Shown here: positions 19,271-27,403 of the stretch, one piece after another
Layout: every line of letters begins with the position of its first letter
How positions within the stretch are numbered: position 1 is the first letter of the stretch
Assembly: GCA_025774545.1 (NCBI GenBank)
Contig: JALGVU010000005.1
Span: forward strand, 1-41,984
DNA from: a bacterium
Lineage (GTDB): Bacteria > Joyebacterota > Joyebacteria > Joyebacterales > Joyebacteraceae
Length of the DNA: 41,984 nt
Direction of reading: 5' to 3'
The notes under the pieces: model-generated
What the model saw: only the letters and a program-made list of their open reading frames with translations
Told to the model about the DNA's origin: nothing
Database searches by the model: none
Made by a program: the position numbers and the translations under genes

Positions 19271-20026
19271 CTACGCGCCGCCGCTCCCCCTCTTGCCCAT
19301 GAAGTGCTCGATGATGTCTATCGGCACCGGGAAGATGATCGTCGAGTTCTTCTCGATGGCGATCTCGCTCAGGGTTTGAAGGAACCGCAGCTGAACGGAG
19401 GTCGGCTCGGTCGCGAGCACCTTCGCGGCGGCCGAGAGCTTCTCGGACGCCTGGAGCTCGCCCTCGGCGTGAATGACCTTCGCCCTTCGCTCCCGCTCGG
19501 CCTCGGCCTGCTTCGCGATCGCGCGCTGCATCTGCTCCGGGAGATCGACGTGCTTGACCTCGACCGCCGAGACCTTGATGCCCCAACTGTCGGTGGCGCG
19601 GTCGAGGATCGCCTGCAGCTCCTGGTTGATCTTCTCGCGGGCGGACAGAAGCTCGTCGAGCTCCGCCGCGCCGATGACGCTTCTCAGCGTCGTCTGGGAG
19701 AGCTGCGAGGTCGCGTAGGCGAAGTCCTGAACTTCGACGATGGCCTTGTCGGGAGCGAACACGCGGTAGTAGACGACGGCGTTCACCTTCACCGAGACGT
19801 TGTCCTTCGTGATGACGTCCTGAGGAGGAACGTCCATCGCGACGATCCGGAGATCGACGCGGACCAGCCGGTCGATGAACGGAAGGATCAGGACGAAGCC
19901 GGGCCCCTTCACACCGGCGAGGCGGCCCAGCCGGAAGACCACGCCGCGCTCGTACTCCCGGAGGACGTAGATCGCCTTCGAGAGCAGAACGAGGAACACG
20001 AGCACAAGGATTAGGGTCCCGCCCAT
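19271..20026 (-). CDS. Slipin / stomatin-like SPFH membrane protein
   Basis: A 251-aa SPFH protein that organises membrane microdomains and usually works with NfeD. One N-terminal transmembrane helix ([19 protein letters not shown]) is followed by the SPFH domain ([46 protein letters not shown]) and a coiled-coil segment rich in [17 protein letters not shown]. The match to bacterial slipins is close. It has a strong ribosome site, AAGGAGGT, 8 bases before ATG 20026. The preceding gene ends 14 bases upstream and encodes NfeD, the expected partner. Confidence 0.93.
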
Positions 20027-20040
20027 ATGCGCTACCTCCT

Positions 20041-20376
20041 TCAGACGCGCCTGACCTTGAGGCGCATCCCGTCAACGGCGACGACCTCGACGCGGGATCC
20101 ACTCTCGATCTCCGCGTCCGCCGTCGCGTTCCAGTACTCGCTGTGCACGTAGATTCGTCCTTCGGGCGCGAGATCCGTCAGGGCCTCTCCGATCTCGCCG
20201 ATCATGCCCGCGCGCCCCGTTCGGACGCGCCGGCCCTGCGCCAGGAGGCCCACCGGCAGCGCGAAGAGGAAGAAGACGATGATGAGCGCCGCGGCGGGCA
20301 GGATCGCGCTCTGCTCGAGCCCGAACAGCCGGAAGAGCGCCGCCAGAAGATCGAGCAGCCCCGTGAACTCGCCCAT
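20041..20376 (-). CDS. nfeD: NfeD family membrane protein, short form
   Basis: The 111-aa product has a long hydrophobic segment ([22 protein letters not shown]) and the C-terminal NfeD OB-fold ([38 protein letters not shown]). It is the short form without the ClpP-like protease domain, as found beside slipin genes. I start it at ATG 20376 ([22 protein letters not shown] upstream), since the earlier frame to 20478 runs through a hairpin. Confidence 0.88.
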
Positions 20377-20455
20377 CACGCACCCCCGATCGGAAGATCC
20401 GCGGCGGTCCGTTCGGCCGTCGCGCGACGACACCCGCGCGCCGGACACAGAAGCG

Positions 20456-20495
20456 GCGGCCCGCCCACCCTCGTGCAACCGAGCGGGCGGACCGC
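20456..20495 (-). terminator. Large hairpin between the GCS2 gene and nfeD
   Basis: An 11-bp outer stem (20456-20466 with 20485-20495, one G-T pair) encloses a loop that itself has a ctcg/cgag stem. It lies in the 147-base gap after the GCS2 gene. A short T-containing stretch but no true U-tract follows on the minus strand. Likely terminator or partial attenuator. Nothing else is evident in the gap. Confidence 0.5.
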
Positions 20496-20523
20496 GTTCG
20501 TCATCCGCGGCGAGGCCGCCGGC

Positions 20524-21747
20524 CTACGCGAGGTCGGTCCTCGTATAGATCCGCACGCCGAGGCGATCGCGCCCCTCGGCCAGCCGGCCCTCGCGCACGA
20601 ACCCGGCCAGAACGTCGTCGAGCTGCGCGGGCGAGAGCGGAGTCTGGCGGAAGAGGACCGGGTAGGGCGTCTCCACCTCGATGCTTCCGAGGAGTTCCTC
20701 CCTGTAATCCTCGGCCTCCACAACGGGAAGGACGGGCGCCCGCGTCAGGTACTTCTCGAAGGCGGCCGGATCCCGCTGGATGTTCGCAATCGTTCGCGTG
20801 TAGCGATGCGCGTCGCCCCGCTCCTTCGCAAAGACGGCGAGCTGGAAGTCGGCCTGCGTCTGACGCTTCCGGATCATCTTCCTGACGACCGCGAGATCGG
20901 CGCTCGACGCGCCGAGAAGCACCATGCCATCCTGCGCCATCTCGACCATCCGTGTCAACAGGGTTTGCGCCGGCACGACCTCGCCGTTCCAGATGAAGGC
21001 CGCCTGAAGACCGTACTTGGAGGCGCGCCAGCGGTTGATCATGATGGCGTGATACTCCTCCTCGGTCAGCTGGCGGCCGGCCTCGTGGATCGACACGTGG
21101 TGCATCATCCCGGCGACGAGCATCACGAGCTCGCACATGAGCCTCGTCGAGCTCACACCATCGCCGACACGGAGTTCGACGGTCGAGCCCCAGGCGAGCT
21201 TCGCGCAGACGTCCGAGCCCCAGTCCGGCTGAGAGAACGCCGGATGCACGAGCGGCTGTGGAACCGAGCACCACTCGGCGAACGAGGCCACGCGGTAGCT
21301 CTTGTAGTCGCCGGTGCGCCCTCGGTAGATCGGGCTGTTCGCCATGAGCGCGGCCAATGGAGCCACGTAGGGCGCCATGGCGTTCTGAACCTGGATGGCG
21401 GCGGTCCAATCCCGCACGGTCCCCACGTGGATGTGCGCGCCGACGGGCTCTCGCTCGAACGGCCGCGAGCCCGCCCGAAGAAGCACCCACTTGCGCTTCG
21501 AGAGCGCCTTACGGAGTTCGCTGTCGAACCGCTCGCTCTTCCTGAGAAGCTCGCCGAACGACCTGACCGACCCGATTCGACTCTCGATCAGCTCGAGATC
21601 GGTCCCGGGCTCGGCCCACGGCAGGCGAGCCCTGAGCTCATCGGAGAGAGCCTCGACGTCCTTCTCGGCGACGTTCTCCCCGGACTCTCTGAGCACGGCC
21701 ATCTCCCAGTCGTATCCGACGGTGAGTGGCTCGAAGTGCGCTTTCAT
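20524..21747 (-). CDS. Glutamate-cysteine ligase family 2 (GCS2/YbdK-type) carboxylate-amine ligase
   Basis: A 407-aa member of the GCS2 ATP-grasp-like ligase family, which joins an amine to the gamma-carboxylate of glutamate or a related acid. The opening TVGYDWEMAVL corresponds to the Mg-binding G-x-E-x-E strand; LELIESRIG, the GAHIHVG motif and the RGRTGDYKSYR and STVELRVGDG segments also fit. The true substrate cannot be told; YbdK-like proteins have weak gamma-glutamylcysteine synthetase activity, and many relatives make other conjugates. Its ATG 21747 directly follows the TAG of the upstream gene, which implies translational coupling. No glutathione synthetase lies near. The C-terminal 90 residues (LPVVEAEDYREELL onward) extend past the usual core. 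Confidence 0.8.
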   Translation of the reverse strand: MKAHFEPLTVGYDWEMAVLRESGENVAEKDVEALSDELRARLPWAEPGTDLELIESRIGSVRSFGELLRKSERFDSELRKALSKRKWVLLRAGSRPFEREPVGAHIHVGTVRDWTAAIQVQNAMAPYVAPLAALMANSPIYRGRTGDYKSYRVASFAEWCSVPQPLVHPAFSQPDWGSDVCAKLAWGSTVELRVGDGVSSTRLMCELVMLVAGMMHHVSIHEAGRQLTEEEYHAIMINRWRASKYGLQAAFIWNGEVVPAQTLLTRMVEMAQDGMVLLGASSADLAVVRKMIRKRQTQADFQLAVFAKERGDAHRYTRTIANIQRDPAAFEKYLTRAPVLPVVEAEDYREELLGSIEVETPYPVLFRQTPLSPAQLDDVLAGFVREGRLAEGRDRLGVRIYTRTDLA

Positions 21748-23199
21748 CTATGCCTCCAGCCTGCACGTCAGGCTCTCGCGTCCGACCGTCGCCGTGCACG
21801 TCAGTGGAAGCGAGCCCTTCGGCAGCGTGAGTGTCTTCGTGTAGATCGTGCCCGCGAACGGGAGGTCGAGCGACCTCAAGGTCGCCGTCTTCCTCCCGCG
21901 CGCCGTCGCGAGCGACACGCGAGGCGCCTCGATCCGGCGGCTGGTTCGCACGGTGAACGCGACGGGGACACCCGCCCGCCCCGCGCGACCCTTCGAGACG
22001 AGAAGCATGGAGCTCTCGCTCGCCGCCACCGCGTCGCCGATGAACAGGCCGACGCCGAACTCGGCCCGGCGGCCCTTCGTGAGCTTCCTCGGCGCGTGCC
22101 GGATCATCAGCTCGGGGCCCTGGAAGTCGCACCGGATACCGACGAGCGGAACCCGTCGGGGCCCGAACAGCACCGCGAGCACCCGCCCCAGCTCCTCGTG
22201 GCGCGAGATCAGGAATCCGGCCGCCAAACCTGCGTGCTCGTCGCGCCAGTCGCGCCATCGCCACCGCCTGCCGTATCCCGGCCGGTGGAAGCGGACGAGC
22301 GACATGCCCCTCCCGGTCGGGACGTCGAAGACGTTCCGCGATGCCGGATGGCCGTCCGAGGGGGTCGAGAGCCGGATCCCGAACGTCAGATCGACCTCGT
22401 CCTTCCTCTTCTTCCCGTCCTTGCCCCGGCCGTCGGTCGGCCCGAGCGGAGCGCCGTCGCCGCGGTCCGAGGAGTCCCCCGGCTGCTCCTCCTTCTTGGG
22501 CTTACCCGAGTACCGGAGCACGTAGCGCTCGATCACGCCCGGAAGGTCGGCGAGAACGCGGACCTCCTTCGAGAACTCGACGCCCTCGGGCTCCTTGAGA
22601 GCGAGCCGGTAGCCGATCTCGGCCGACGCGCCGTTCGCGGCCGGTTCCCCACGCTTGAACTCCGACTTCCAGAGCTCCCCCGGAGATCCGGACTCGAAGA
22701 CGACCTCCTCGACGCCGCCGAGGAGGATGTACCTCCCGCCCATGATGTAATCGCCGGGCTGGGCGAGCCGGTCGTCCCCATCACACCCGCGGAGCGAGAG
22801 CAGCCTCGCGCCGCGGTGGGGCTGGACGGTCGCGGCGAGGAAGCAGTTGGCCAGGACGTCCTCTCTGTGCCCGTCCCGGTCGACGTCGCCCGAGCGAACG
22901 TCGACCCTTCCGAGTCGCGTGCACTCGAGATCGATCGCAGGCTTGCGCCGGCAGAGGATTCTAGCGCTTTCGGCGGGGTCGAGAACCAGGTGGTCCCCCT
23001 TCTTGACGCCCCACGGGAGCATGAACTCCCGCTTGAGCGTCGCCACCTTCCCGACGGTCTCCTTCGGAACGGAGAGCGCGCTCATCGCCGGTCCCTCGAC
23101 CTCGACGCGGAGCGCGTAGCGCCCGTATTCGAGGCCGTTCTTGTCCCGATAGCGCTTCTCGAGCTTCTTCTCCCGCACCTTCACGAGCAGTCGCTGCAT
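21748..23199 (-). CDS. Unknown protein, possible galactose-mutarotase-like beta-sandwich
   Basis: I do not recognise this 483-aa protein. No signal peptide or membrane helix is seen, so it is probably cytoplasmic. The region DVDRDGHREDVLANCFLAA followed by VQPHRGARLLSL resembles the start of galactose-mutarotase-like or GH57-associated beta-sandwich domains, where an ENDxLRxxxxPxxGGRxxxL pattern recurs; this is a weak similarity by eye. The middle has a Lys/Asp-rich low-complexity insert (KPKKEEQPGDSSDRGDG, about 230-265) and then RRWRWRDWRDEHAG. The first 60 residues are very basic. It has GGGGGAG before ATG 23199. Its stop codon directly abuts the ATG of the GCS2 ligase, so the two products are likely made together. 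Confidence 0.7.
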   Translation of the reverse strand: MQRLLVKVREKKLEKRYRDKNGLEYGRYALRVEVEGPAMSALSVPKETVGKVATLKREFMLPWGVKKGDHLVLDPAESARILCRRKPAIDLECTRLGRVDVRSGDVDRDGHREDVLANCFLAATVQPHRGARLLSLRGCDGDDRLAQPGDYIMGGRYILLGGVEEVVFESGSPGELWKSEFKRGEPAANGASAEIGYRLALKEPEGVEFSKEVRVLADLPGVIERYVLRYSGKPKKEEQPGDSSDRGDGAPLGPTDGRGKDGKKRKDEVDLTFGIRLSTPSDGHPASRNVFDVPTGRGMSLVRFHRPGYGRRWRWRDWRDEHAGLAAGFLISRHEELGRVLAVLFGPRRVPLVGIRCDFQGPELMIRHAPRKLTKGRRAEFGVGLFIGDAVAASESSMLLVSKGRAGRAGVPVAFTVRTSRRIEAPRVSLATARGRKTATLRSLDLPFAGTIYTKTLTLPKGSLPLTCTATVGRESLTCRLEA

Positions 23200-23319
23200 G
23201 ACTCTCCCCCAGTCTCTTCACGTGACGGATCGATGGCCGGCAACGTCAGAGATGGTTCGGGGAGACAACCCTCGGCTCCCAGGACGCTCGTGGCCCCGGG
23301 ATCGAAGGGGTTCGCGCCA

Positions 23320-23359
23320 CAAAAAGAAAGGGAGCAGAGAGTCGTAGACTCTCTGCTCC
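23320..23359 (-). terminator. Rho-independent terminator of the HU gene
   Basis: A perfect 12-bp stem, ggagcagagagt (23331-23342) with actctctgctcc (23348-23359), and a 5-base loop. On the minus strand it is followed by CTTTCTTTTTG, a proper U-tract. It lies 36 bases after the HU stop. Confidence 0.9.
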
Positions 23360-23394
23360 CCGTGCAGAGGCTCATACTCCCTCGAACTATCGTC

Positions 23395-23679
23395 CTACTT
23401 GACGCTGTCCTTCAAGGACTTGCCGGCCTTGAACTTCGGATAGTAGTGGCTGCCGACGTGCTTCGTCTTGTCGGTGCCCGGAATGCGCCAATCCCTGGCC
23501 GGACGATGCTCGGCGCTGAACGTTCCGAAGCCGGTGATCTGGACCTTGCCTCTGTCCTTCAGCTCCGTGGAGATAATCCCCGCGTCCGTGGAGAACAGCG
23601 CGTCGATGATGTCCTTCGAAGCCCTGTTCGACTCTCCTGTCCTCTCAGCCAGCTTCTCGATGAGCTCAGCCTTGTTCAT
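23395..23679 (-). CDS. HU/IHF-family DNA-binding protein with an atypical arm
   Basis: A 94-aa nucleoid protein that bends DNA as a dimer. The dimerisation body (MNKAELIEKLAERTG, QITGFGTFSAEHRPARD) and the C-terminal FKAGKSLKDSVK are standard. The beta-arm, normally R-N-P-x-T-G, reads RDWRIPGTDKTKHVGSHYYP, so the intercalating Pro and its context differ from typical HU. ATG 23679 has GGGGGA upstream; the frame open to 23763 overlaps the promoter. It has its own promoter and a clear U-tract terminator, so it is a monocistronic unit. Confidence 0.93.
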   Translation of the reverse strand: MNKAELIEKLAERTGESNRASKDIIDALFSTDAGIISTELKDRGKVQITGFGTFSAEHRPARDWRIPGTDKTKHVGSHYYPKFKAGKSLKDSVK

Positions 23680-23744
23680 CAAGTTCCCCCTCTCGGCCGA
23701 CGCCGCGCTAAACCAGAACCACGAAACCACCCGAATTTTGGGAC

Positions 23745-23773
23745 ACGCTACAACACGCCCCACACCTTGTCAA
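23745..23773 (-). promoter_or_regulatory. Sigma70-type promoter of the HU gene
   Basis: Minus-strand -35 TTGACA (23773-23768), 17-base spacer, -10 TAGCGT (23750-23745). Predicted start near 23738 and a leader of about 58 bases. Confidence 0.7.
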
Positions 23774-23887
23774 TAGGAATCGCCCGAAAAGTGGGCCTTG
23801 CCGGGGCAGTCCCTCAGAGGCCCGATCGGGGCCGTTTTCATCGCCTTCGCCGGATATAGTGAGGTATAGTCCTGCGATCCTGCGCCG

Positions 23888-26800
23888 TCAGCGCACGACT
23901 CGCTTGAGGAACTTCTCTCCCCGCTCGGCTTGGATCTCGGGGAGGGCCTTGACGTTGATCCGGAAGTAGTACTGCCACTCGCCCTCGTAGTAGCGGCGCG
24001 TGAACTGCGCCTCCCAGCAGTGGAGATCCCGGTAGAGCGTGTACTCTTGGCTCGCGACCTCCTGCTCCTTGAGGTCGTAGTGGACGCGGTAGTTGACCCG
24101 CCAGTTCCGCGTCAGGGAGAGCGCGAACGTGCCGTCGGCCCAGTAGGTCTCGCTTCCGGGTTGCGCGCCGCGCGAGTAGCGGAAGGTCATCGAGGCTGAC
24201 CAGGGACGGGAGCCGGGGCGTCCGCTGAGGGACTGCCGGGCGACCTCCCTGCGGAGCTCGTCGACCGGCGAGTCCCCGTCGTCCCCGATGCGGTCCTCCC
24301 AGGGATCCGCGAAGTCGGAAGGAGACTCACCCGTCAGATCGATCGTCGCGGTCACCGTCGAGTTCTCGATGTCCCAGTCGTAGGTGTCGTGTCGCGTGTT
24401 CCAGCGCACGGAGAGCGCCCTGCCGGGCCTGAGCTCCAGGTTCGACGAGAGGTCCGCCCAGCGGTGATCGTCCTTCGTGAAGTCGTAGGAGCTCGACATC
24501 GACAGGCGGAGGAGGTTGTCGAGCTTCCTGATCTCCCCCCCGTCCTTGACCTTGAGCTGGAGCTTGTTGACGAGCGAGAGTCTCAGGGCCTCTCGCTCCC
24601 TCGGGGTCGATCCGAAGCCGCTCATCGTGTAGAAGATGTCCGTCCCGTCGTCGTTGAAGTACTGCGTGAAGTCCGGCGTCCACGAGAAGGAGGCCGAGGG
24701 CTCGATGATGTGCCGGACCGCCTCGAGCGGCCCGACCCTCGGGAAGAAGGTCCCGTAGACCGTCGTTCCCGCCGACACGCCGGCGTCGTACGTGAACCTC
24801 CCTGCGAACCGTTCGCCCAGCTTGTTGCGGTCGTACCAATTCTGGCGGAGGCTGACGCGCGGCGTGAGGTTGATCCAGCGCAGGATCTTCGTCGAGTTCC
24901 TGATCGACGCCCCGACCCCCACGCCCTGCCGGATCTCCGTCTCGTCCCCGTTCCTGTCCCGGTCGTTCACCGCGCCTGCCTTCCAGCTGTAGGAGGTCTT
25001 CGCGAGCCACGACTTCAAACCCGTGGCGCCGCCGGCGTTCGCGACGAGCGGCCGCTGAGAACCGGTCACGTCGATCTTAGGCAGAAGCTCCGACACGACG
25101 TCCTGATCGATCTCCTCACGCCGGTCGAGCGTGACGCCGACCGAGACGCGACTCCACCGCCCTCTCGTCCAGAACTGCGAGTGGAGGCTGCGATTCACGC
25201 TCTCCTGGATCGACTGGTTCGCGTCGCTCGCGTAGCTGGCGTCGCTCCTGAAGTCGCCGGACGCGCCCATCGTCCAGTTGCGTCCGAACTCCTGCCGATG
25301 TGACAGCTTGAGATCCCACCGCCTCTTGTCTCCGGAGAACTCCTGCATGAAGGACCCCGAGACCGACCCCGAGAGGACGTAGCGGAGCTTGTAGCGCGCC
25401 TCCGCGTGCGTGATCCAGCGCGTCTGCTCGTAGAAGTCGCCCCAGAGGGTCAGGTCCCAGTAGTCGCTCGGGGCCCAGTAGTAGCCGAAGTTCTTGATGA
25501 AGCGTCCGCTCGTCTGGCTCACGCCGATGTCGACCCTCGGGATGAGGAAGCCGGAGTGCCGCTTGGTCCGGATCGGGAAGACGTAGAACGGCAGCGCGAA
25601 GACGGGGATCTCGCCGATGTAGAGGATGACCGGCTTCGCGACGACCTTGTCGTCCAGGTAGATCTTCATCCGGTACGACTCGAGCCGGTAGTGGGGCTCG
25701 GGGTCGGAGCAGGTCGTGTAGACCCCGCCGGTCACGCGGAGCGTGCCGTCCTCCTCCCGGTGGATCCTCTCGCCGTAGTAGAGACCGTCCTCGAACGTCG
25801 TGACGCCCTCGATGACGGTTCCCGACCGCTCCTCGAGATCGTAGTTCAGGTTCTTCCCGACCAGCCTCTCTCCGCGCTCGTGGAGATCGGGCGAGCCTGA
25901 GGCGGAGAGCACCTGCTCCTCGGGATCGAAGACGACCTCGTCGGCCGTGAGGGCGGTCTCCTTGTACTCGACCGTGGCGCCGCCCGACAGGATGATCCTG
26001 TTCCTTCCCACGTAGTAGTCGATCCGGTCCGAGCTGTAGACGACGACCTCGAGCGCAACCGAGTCAGCGGGAGCGTCGACCGGCGCCTCTCCGTCGTCCG
26101 GCTCATCGGCAAGCTCATCCGGGGACGGAGCGTCCTCGGGGACGGCCTCGCCACCTTCCGGCCCCGCCTCGCCCTCCTTGGGCCCGGCCTCGCCCTCCTT
26201 GGGCCCGGCCGCAGTGCCCTCCTCCGGCCCCGCCTCGCCCTCCTTGGGCCCGGCCGCAGCGCCCTCCTCCGCCCCCGCCTCGCCCTCCTTGGGCCCGGCC
26301 GCGGCGCCCTCCTCCGGCTCAAACGTGTACGACCCTCTGGCCTCACCTCGGAACACGGCCCGCATGATGCTGCCCTCGGTGAAGAGCACGTCGATCCTGC
26401 GCGAGTCGACACGGTTCATCTCGCCCCGGTCGCCCACGACGTGCTCGCTCGCGGCCCGCCCGCGCACGGCGGTCAGGACCGGCTCCCCCTCCTGGAAGAA
26501 CATCGTGAGCGTGTCGCCGACCACGTGGCCGCGCTGCGGCTCGGCCGCGGGATCGCCGTCCTCGATGGTGTAGTCCGTGCGCGCGCGCCCCGTCGCCACC
26601 ACGCGGGAGATCCGTCCCTCGTCGACGAAGACGAGGATCCTCTCGCCCTTCAGGCGATCCGTCTCGCGCTCGACGGACGGACTGCCCTCGAGGACCATTC
26701 GGTCGTCCTCGGCGTAGATGGTCACGAGGCGCGCGCGCGCGGTCACGTCGTCCCGCACGATCTCGGCGTCGCCGTAGGCAATGACGGCGCCCGTAGAGCG

Positions 26801-27403
26801 GGAGAACTCGACGACCCGGGCGGTGAGCGTCGCGTCCGGATCGCCCTCGTCGTCGAAGGTGACGAGCACCGGCCCGTCCGACGCTCTGGCCTCGCGCCGG
26901 TCGAAGTCGTAGACGAGACGGCCGGCCGTGAGCTCGGAGGCGCCCTCGCGATCGACGGCGTTGACGTCCCCGACGCAGACCGCGACGCCGCTGCGGCGGA
27001 ACATCTCGATCCTCCGCGCGCGCGTGACGCCGGAGGTGTCCGCGTAGGAAGCGTTGCCCTTGAGGAGAGCGACGTCGGATCTCTGGTAGTAGAAGAGCGA
27101 GTCGCAGGCGATCTTCGTGAGGCCGTCGACCCCGTGAACGTTTCCGTGGACGAGCGCGACGCCGTGGGTGTCCCGGTAGATCCCGTGGTCGCCGACGATG
27201 GTCGCGCCGCCCTGGCGGATGGTCACGTTCCCCTCCAGGATGACCACCCGGCCTTCGGGACCTTCCTGCGCCTCGACCTCTTCGGCGGTGATCTCGAACG
27301 ATCCGGGGGGCAGCTCGGGCTCGGGAGGTTCCTGGGCGGCGGATTCCCCAGCGAGCAGGAGCGTGAGACCGAAGATGAGCACGAGCGAAGAGAGTTGCTT
27401 CAC
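23888..27403 (-). CDS. lptD: LPS-assembly outer-membrane protein LptD (OstA) with extended N-terminal domain
   Basis: LptD inserts LPS into the outer leaflet. The 1171-aa protein is far longer than E. coli LptD (about 780). After a signal peptide (residues 1-23, ending SAA) come many LptA-like beta-jellyroll repeats, such as VILEGNVTIRQGGATIVGD and VALVHGNVHG. A low-complexity insert of GPKEGEAGPEEG units (about 365-440) is followed by a second OstA segment (DRIDYYVGRNRIILSGGATVEYKE). The C-terminal half is the barrel, beginning VYTTCSDPEPHYRLESYRM with PVFALPFYVFPIRTKRHSG, typical of LptD. Few cysteines are present, so the disulfide pattern of E. coli is not conserved. GTG 27403 has GAGG upstream and starts a good signal peptide. 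Confidence 0.92.
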   Translation of the reverse strand: MKQLSSLVLIFGLTLLLAGESAAQEPPEPELPPGSFEITAEEVEAQEGPEGRVVILEGNVTIRQGGATIVGDHGIYRDTHGVALVHGNVHGVDGLTKIACDSLFYYQRSDVALLKGNASYADTSGVTRARRIEMFRRSGVAVCVGDVNAVDREGASELTAGRLVYDFDRREARASDGPVLVTFDDEGDPDATLTARVVEFSRSTGAVIAYGDAEIVRDDVTARARLVTIYAEDDRMVLEGSPSVERETDRLKGERILVFVDEGRISRVVATGRARTDYTIEDGDPAAEPQRGHVVGDTLTMFFQEGEPVLTAVRGRAASEHVVGDRGEMNRVDSRRIDVLFTEGSIMRAVFRGEARGSYTFEPEEGAAAGPKEGEAGAEEGAAAGPKEGEAGPEEGTAAGPKEGEAGPKEGEAGPEGGEAVPEDAPSPDELADEPDDGEAPVDAPADSVALEVVVYSSDRIDYYVGRNRIILSGGATVEYKETALTADEVVFDPEEQVLSASGSPDLHERGERLVGKNLNYDLEERSGTVIEGVTTFEDGLYYGERIHREEDGTLRVTGGVYTTCSDPEPHYRLESYRMKIYLDDKVVAKPVILYIGEIPVFALPFYVFPIRTKRHSGFLIPRVDIGVSQTSGRFIKNFGYYWAPSDYWDLTLWGDFYEQTRWITHAEARYKLRYVLSGSVSGSFMQEFSGDKRRWDLKLSHRQEFGRNWTMGASGDFRSDASYASDANQSIQESVNRSLHSQFWTRGRWSRVSVGVTLDRREEIDQDVVSELLPKIDVTGSQRPLVANAGGATGLKSWLAKTSYSWKAGAVNDRDRNGDETEIRQGVGVGASIRNSTKILRWINLTPRVSLRQNWYDRNKLGERFAGRFTYDAGVSAGTTVYGTFFPRVGPLEAVRHIIEPSASFSWTPDFTQYFNDDGTDIFYTMSGFGSTPREREALRLSLVNKLQLKVKDGGEIRKLDNLLRLSMSSSYDFTKDDHRWADLSSNLELRPGRALSVRWNTRHDTYDWDIENSTVTATIDLTGESPSDFADPWEDRIGDDGDSPVDELRREVARQSLSGRPGSRPWSASMTFRYSRGAQPGSETYWADGTFALSLTRNWRVNYRVHYDLKEQEVASQEYTLYRDLHCWEAQFTRRYYEGEWQYYFRINVKALPEIQAERGEKFLKRVVR
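26163..26320 (-). repeat. 45-bp in-frame repeats within lptD
   Basis: About three and a half near-identical 45-bp copies encode GPKEGEAGPEEGAAA. On the plus strand they share ctcgccctccttgggcccgg. The array lies between two OstA-like parts of LptD. Its unit length is a multiple of three, so copy changes keep the frame. Confidence 0.85.

Follow-up and report, generated by a model that had tools for sequence, protein, structure and literature searches.

Two abutting genes in the window (the whole stretch of DNA analysed, 41,984 nucleotides) encode a GCS2-like carboxylate-amine ligase, here called LIG, and a 483-residue partner protein, P1, and the conservation of their adjacency in other genomes, unlike the bare junction, exceeds chance. 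In 31 of the 32 genomes in which the LIG family was found, the frame immediately upstream of LIG is P1-type and either abuts or overlaps it. Since both genes stay together in distantly related bacteria, P1 and LIG probably belong to one enzyme. We give about even odds to the specific reading that they are two subunits of a single cytoplasmic ATP-dependent carboxylate-amine ligase, in which LIG would be catalytic and P1 would be non-catalytic, either binding and positioning the substrate or tuning LIG. No title or abstract in the open-licence literature searched describes the pair, and the accessible part of one paper (PMC11323493) mentions neither glutathione nor glutamate-cysteine nor mutarotase. 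The features referred to below are as follows.

21748..23199, minus strand: P1, 483-aa partner protein (open reading frame, ATG to TAG)
20524..21747, minus strand: LIG, GCS2-like carboxylate-amine ligase of 407 aa that bears an additional C-terminal domain (open reading frame, ATG to TAG; PF04107, predicted structure and motifs)
21748..21757, minus strand: P1/LIG junction, a GGAGG block within the terminal P1 codons, followed by CATAG, with the LIG ATG at 21747
22861..22887, minus strand: DxDxDGxxE loop of P1, residues 105-113 (coordinates computed from residue numbers)
21703..21717, minus strand: G-Y-D-W-E motif of LIG, residues 11-15 (coordinates computed from residue numbers)
P1 residues about 1-90: small N-terminal beta domain
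P1 residues about 98-390: mutarotase-like supersandwich
P1 residues about 395-483: C-terminal beta domain

Junction, distribution and shared inheritance of the pair

The TAG of P1 is followed by the ATG of LIG with 0 bases between them, the junction reading ...CTGGAGGCATAG and then ATG..., exactly where a first-pass annotation of this DNA had placed it. A Shine-Dalgarno-like, ribosome-binding-like GGAGG block sits within the end of P1, 5 bases ahead of the LIG ATG, and was seen at all eight P1/LIG junctions printed for the window's phylum. Codon-position G+C is coding-like in both frames. Three other neighbour pairs in the window have a 4-base overlap, a background drawn from the window's genes alone (30 kept by a rough codon-composition caller). 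Because zero-gap and 4-base-overlap junctions are not rare here, the junction by itself says nothing on function. Fusion of the two chains by read-through of the stop was also considered, since in the window's phylum six of eight junctions have TAG and ATG in frame with no gap and a seventh has them in frame one codon apart. It was rejected as a common mechanism because at the eighth junction, and in most pairs from WOR-3 and other groups, the genes overlap in different frames, and because TAG is a common stop (12 of the 30 window genes by the same caller). No P1-LIG gene fusion was seen among the pairs found.

The LIG family spans at least four phylum-level groups. Within the window's phylum it occurs in 8 of 20 genomes, all in one family by the grouping used in the search, and P1 occurs in the same eight; the 12 genomes without LIG contain no full P1, three short GH57-type matches being found there. 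Among 386 sampled genomes, including 20 from the window's family, a LIG of full length was confined to that family and to G155, G022 and G309. The remaining LIG matches were partial, and those for which loci were obtained, 19 in number, behave like GCS2 proteins of other kinds. LIG adjoins P1 in G155, G022 and G309, and also in G391; P1 is present in one of the four genomes of G155's phylum, and long P1 matches occur in 3 of the 17 of G022's. In the WOR-3/Cloacimonadota phylum LIG is found in 20 of 147 genomes. Only G549 among these 147 has P1 with no LIG match, and since its 5841-base contig ends inside P1 we counted it neither way. In another twelve genomes of this phylum the P1 profile matched only short stretches, inside frames of 596-713 residues. 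Ten similar proteins from other groups were translated, and the two of these that were scanned are both GH57 enzymes with PF09095.

The linkage count includes three genomes in which similarity to P1 is weak (L102, L103 and L104; 19-39 bits), the assignment resting there partly on position. In G007 the pair is split over two contigs, the end of P1 adjoining LIG, and a contig end cuts P1 in L098 and L022. The one exception is G538, in which LIG has no adjoining P1 and a full P1 lies on another contig (E 1.4e-109). At L103 (G429) LIG is broken into two overlapping frames by an apparent frameshift, possibly an assembly error, and the upstream P1-like frame is open. The first-pass annotation had staked the pairing on conserved adjacency in related genomes, and the adjacency reaches far beyond close relatives. 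The genes around the pair vary by lineage (HU, NfeD and SPFH in the window; folate, pantothenate and lamin-tail-like genes at L024/L026; rpsG in G022/G309; assigned by sequence reading where not scanned), and no third gene recurs beside it in the loci read. A defence or phage origin was considered and rejected: neither P1 nor LIG gave a PADLOC or PHROGs match at E 0.1, and a search of viral_contigs with the LIG profile brought up no relative.

Trees of P1 and LIG built from 26 pairs, the unlinked pair of G538 included, have 15 of 23 splits in common, with no conflict among the strongly supported splits (15 in the P1 tree, 13 in the LIG tree). The correlation of P1 with LIG distances was 0.94, against a permutation maximum of 0.30. 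Moreover, G155, which belongs to another phylum, groups with a subset of the WOR-3 phylum in both trees, which suggests that P1 and LIG were transferred jointly in this case. Because organism history alone also makes trees agree, we take the congruence as support for joint inheritance rather than for contact, and co-inheritance would equally fit two proteins that act in sequence without touching. These data bear most directly on the reading that the pair is merely a conserved operon whose two products have unrelated jobs. Tight junctions are indeed common in the window; adjacency, however, persists in 31 of the 32 genomes though the other neighbours vary, both genes are kept in G538 though unlinked, and the two trees are congruent, so that we regard unrelated jobs as quite improbable.

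LIG and its departures from GCS2 ligases

LIG passes the PF04107 cut-off (33.9 bits against 21) and fails the curated NCBIfam cut-off of TIGR02050 (YbdK; 84.6 against 176.4 bits). In its predicted structure (pLDDT 73.7; weak at residues 1-14, 47-54 and 160-192), residues 2-326 superpose on YbdK-type proteins with Z 28.0 (1tt4) and 27.3 (1r8g) over 311-312 residues at rmsd 3.3, the next fold matches being plant glutamate-cysteine ligase (Z 24.9), GshA (about 19) and Dop/PafA (13.6-17.7). The NCBIfam matches of note are all YbdK/GCL-type models, with none to PafA/Dop. LIG carries what a ligase of the glutamine-synthetase fold needs, namely carboxylates for metal and ATP, the HxH motif and the ExR..D strand, and over 31 sequences some 15 polar columns of the active site show 90-100% conservation (W14, E15, D50, E55, H105, H107, K149, R152, D179, E191, R193, D196, N238, R239 and D300). 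With YbdK/GCS2 ligases (PF04107, TIGR02050; 1r8g, 1tt4) it thus shares the fold, the HxH, ExR..D and NR/NK motifs and the catalytic carboxylates, and the annotation of a GCS2-type ligase is borne out by the YbdK-like fold and the conserved catalytic motifs.

LIG nevertheless differs from these enzymes in several respects. The accessible part of PMC2588565 describes a GhExE Mg/ATP signature as absolutely conserved in GCS2 and PafA. Its counterpart in the window's LIG is G-Y-D-W-E: the window's clade has G-[Y/I]-D-W-E, hence GhDxE for GhExE with Trp at the x position, against G-x-E-x-E in 19 of 19 sampled GCS2 proteins. As the window protein lacks GhExE, we describe LIG as GCS2-like and not as a typical member. 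The Asp marks only part of the LIG family, because more distant members, in a divergent WOR-3 clade, have G-Y-E-W-E; given Asp for the first Glu, the chemistry of the window's clade may not be unaltered. Compared with the 19 GCS2 proteins, all from other genomes, LIG is also missing about 25 residues ahead of HxH and has Phe or Trp where the common 'ADRQ' motif has its arginine. In addition, it has a C-terminal domain of about 80 residues (about 327-407), modelled as helix-helix-hairpin in a way that suggests a winged helix, a fold for which neither Pfam nor a PDB profile search (best E 0.006, to a protein named E8) gave support. In a tree the 32 LIG and the 19 sampled GCS2 sequences fall on opposite sides of one branch with support 99/99, the LIG of L104 forming a long branch. 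Finally, unlike YbdK/GCS2, LIG has a partner gene kept with it.

Two readings of the pair turn on the identity of the ligase. The first-pass annotation had allowed for a thiol derivative as product, and since the GCS2 family includes gamma-glutamylcysteine synthetases and the LIG fold matches plant GCL, LIG could be such a synthetase and the pair could make a glutathione-like thiol. This reading is now disfavoured, and we think it very unlikely: the glutathione synthetase domain GSH-S_ATP (PF02955) is absent from 15 of the 16 pair-bearing genomes, the window's included (9 of 14 control genomes match PF02955, which is not confined to glutathione makers), and both the residues missing before HxH and the replaced 'ADRQ' arginine tell against it. 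Alternatively, LIG might modify a protein, as PafA/Dop do with Pup, P1 being the target or an adaptor that brings the target. Dop and PafA are among the solved fold relatives of LIG (Z 13.6-17.7), LIG has an extra C-terminal domain, and carboxylate-amine ligases can act on proteins according to the accessible part of PMC2588565. LIG lies much nearer, however, to YbdK (Z 27-28) and to plant GCL (Z 25), the NCBIfam matches of note are all YbdK/GCL-type, and no third gene recurs beside the pair in the loci read. We therefore consider protein modification unlikely, though it deserves some weight.

P1, a predicted mutarotase-like fold with no conserved cleft histidine or acid

As a single sequence P1 has no match in Pfam, NCBIfam or PDB sequences, and none in Pfam to any epimerase family. 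Its predicted structure (pLDDT 82.1, pTM 0.81) places residues 98-390 on Bacillus subtilis GalM (4bze) with Z 23.6 over 235 residues and rmsd 2.5, a search that barely covered the N-terminal and C-terminal domains. The earlier guess of a mutarotase-like fold was therefore right, and a clear match of P1 to a known unrelated family, which would have told against the pair, did not appear. GalM and its kin (4bze, 3mwx) share the supersandwich with P1 but only about 11% sequence identity, and residues of their catalytic His/Glu type are not conserved across P1. Among the fold matches the mutarotase-like fold also serves in YidC and in NDH subunits, so that it need not imply sugar binding by P1.

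A second kinship lies with GH57 4-alpha-glucanotransferases. P1 matches 1k1w and 1k1x by fold (Z 17.7-17.8), and the best PDB match to a profile of 12 P1 relatives is 1k1w (E 0.0023, profile positions 102-141). PF09095 (AmyA-gluTrfs_C) is matched by 5 of the 12 relatives at a best E of 0.00061, the listed scores being 15-17 bits against a cut-off of 22; a P1 relative added later, L099, passes the cut-off (22.7), and the window's P1 has no match. Against the GH57-type proteins of related genomes hhalign gave E 3.5e-6 over 47 columns. The DxDxDGxxE loop is part of a stretch common to the GH57 C-terminal domain (PF09095, 1k1w), with which P1 shares the run DxDxDGxxE...N...P..G as well as the fold. 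P1 differs from the GH57 enzymes in having no catalytic barrel and N- and C-terminal domains of its own, and the sequence match extends to the domain start only. Judged by these alignments, P1 is a distant relative of the GH57 glucanotransferase C-terminal domain.

Conservation within P1 contrasts sharply with that in LIG. Over 26 sequences, from which L044, L098 and L102-L104 (P1 below 80 bits) were left out, the polar columns at 90% identity are solely R57, E77, D105, E113 and N118 (positions given in the numbering of the 483-aa protein, after a shift of 5). R57 and E77 lie in the N-terminal domain, and D105 and E113 in the DxDxDG loop; no His at all, and no acid of the sandwich besides these two, reaches 90% identity in that set. 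Aldose 1-epimerases (galactose mutarotases) have a conserved catalytic His and Glu. Because no cleft His or acid is conserved, P1 is probably no epimerase; from its sequences it looks like a binding or scaffold protein, with sugar binding as a candidate trait drawn from the predicted fold. Some P1 proteins of WOR-3 are about 320-340 residues long and have no DxDxDG loop, and the relative at L091 (G418) has an insertion of about 75 residues between the N-terminal domain and the sandwich. No strong 19-residue hydrophobic stretch was found in 23 sequences (highest mean 1.55), and both P1 and LIG look soluble and of ordinary size.

These features also weigh on the idea of two consecutive enzymes, in which P1, a sugar epimerase/mutarotase or other carbohydrate enzyme, would make the substrate that LIG conjugates. 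The mutarotase-like fold, the tight gene pair and the amidoligase partner all suit it. We nevertheless find it rather improbable, as no cleft His or acid is conserved across the 26 P1 sequences, P1 has no Pfam epimerase match, and the loop is absent from the short WOR-3 proteins. The 'enzyme pair' of the first-pass annotation accordingly holds as a pair, but a second enzyme is an unlikely role for P1, whose cleft has no conserved catalytic-type residue; we prefer 'enzyme plus partner subunit', and the two-gene pathway for a conjugate proposed there softens to one two-subunit ligase.

A proposed two-subunit carboxylate-amine ligase

In a two-subunit ligase of the kind proposed here, LIG, with its GCS2-like glutamine-synthetase fold, would phosphorylate a carboxylate and then join it to an amine, in keeping with the superfamily reaction of carboxylate phosphorylation followed by amine attack (PMC2588565, accessible part). 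P1, whose mutarotase-like fold has no conserved catalytic residues, would bind LIG and present or select the substrate, perhaps one linked to a sugar or glycan, or would tune LIG. One message probably encodes both chains, and the abutting genes could help them meet through translational coupling; the fixed ratio of translation suggested in the first-pass annotation is conjectural. We infer the binding of P1 to LIG, amide formation as the reaction and the contact of P1 with substrate. A partner subunit is the simplest role for P1, since it occurs wherever LIG does, is probably translated from the same message and has no conserved catalysis. The sugar-type fold and GH57 kinship of P1 make a carbohydrate-bearing substrate the leading guess.

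A works-like analogy, and no closer one, is offered by the eukaryotic glutamate-cysteine ligase holoenzyme, in which the catalytic GS-fold subunit GCLC is joined by the non-catalytic modifier GCLM, built on an old enzyme fold. The fold of GCLM is that of aldo-keto reductases, not mutarotase-like. Known members of the GCS2-like amidoligase superfamily make glutathione precursors, glutamine and Pup conjugates. We propose, tentatively, that P1 and LIG represent a class of two-subunit amidoligases across uncultured phyla. In this class a sugar-mutarotase fold, now retired, would present the substrate and steer amide formation towards an undescribed sugar-bearing metabolite or glycan. If so, the pair would give the GCS2-like amidoligases a branch that is stably paired and co-inherited, would suggest that candidate phyla known chiefly through metagenomes make an amide product not yet described, and would be a case of a sugar-enzyme fold recruited as a non-catalytic subunit.

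Several observations concern the surroundings of the pair. All 30 window genes kept by the rough caller lie on the minus strand, which suggests one long co-directional stretch. A 1238-residue open frame runs antisense through the whole pair (20143-23859, plus strand) and probably just shadows the high-G+C coding DNA. Close downstream of the pair (19271-20478, minus strand) the window encodes an SPFH/Band 7 protein and an NfeD-domain protein, and an SPFH-like gene also lies close downstream of it at L021 and L083. At 23888-27403 (minus strand) the window encodes an LptD-type protein of 1171 residues (LptD_2, LptD_N), in which a low-complexity repeat made up of AAGPKEGEAGPEEG-type units separates the N-terminal part from the barrel.
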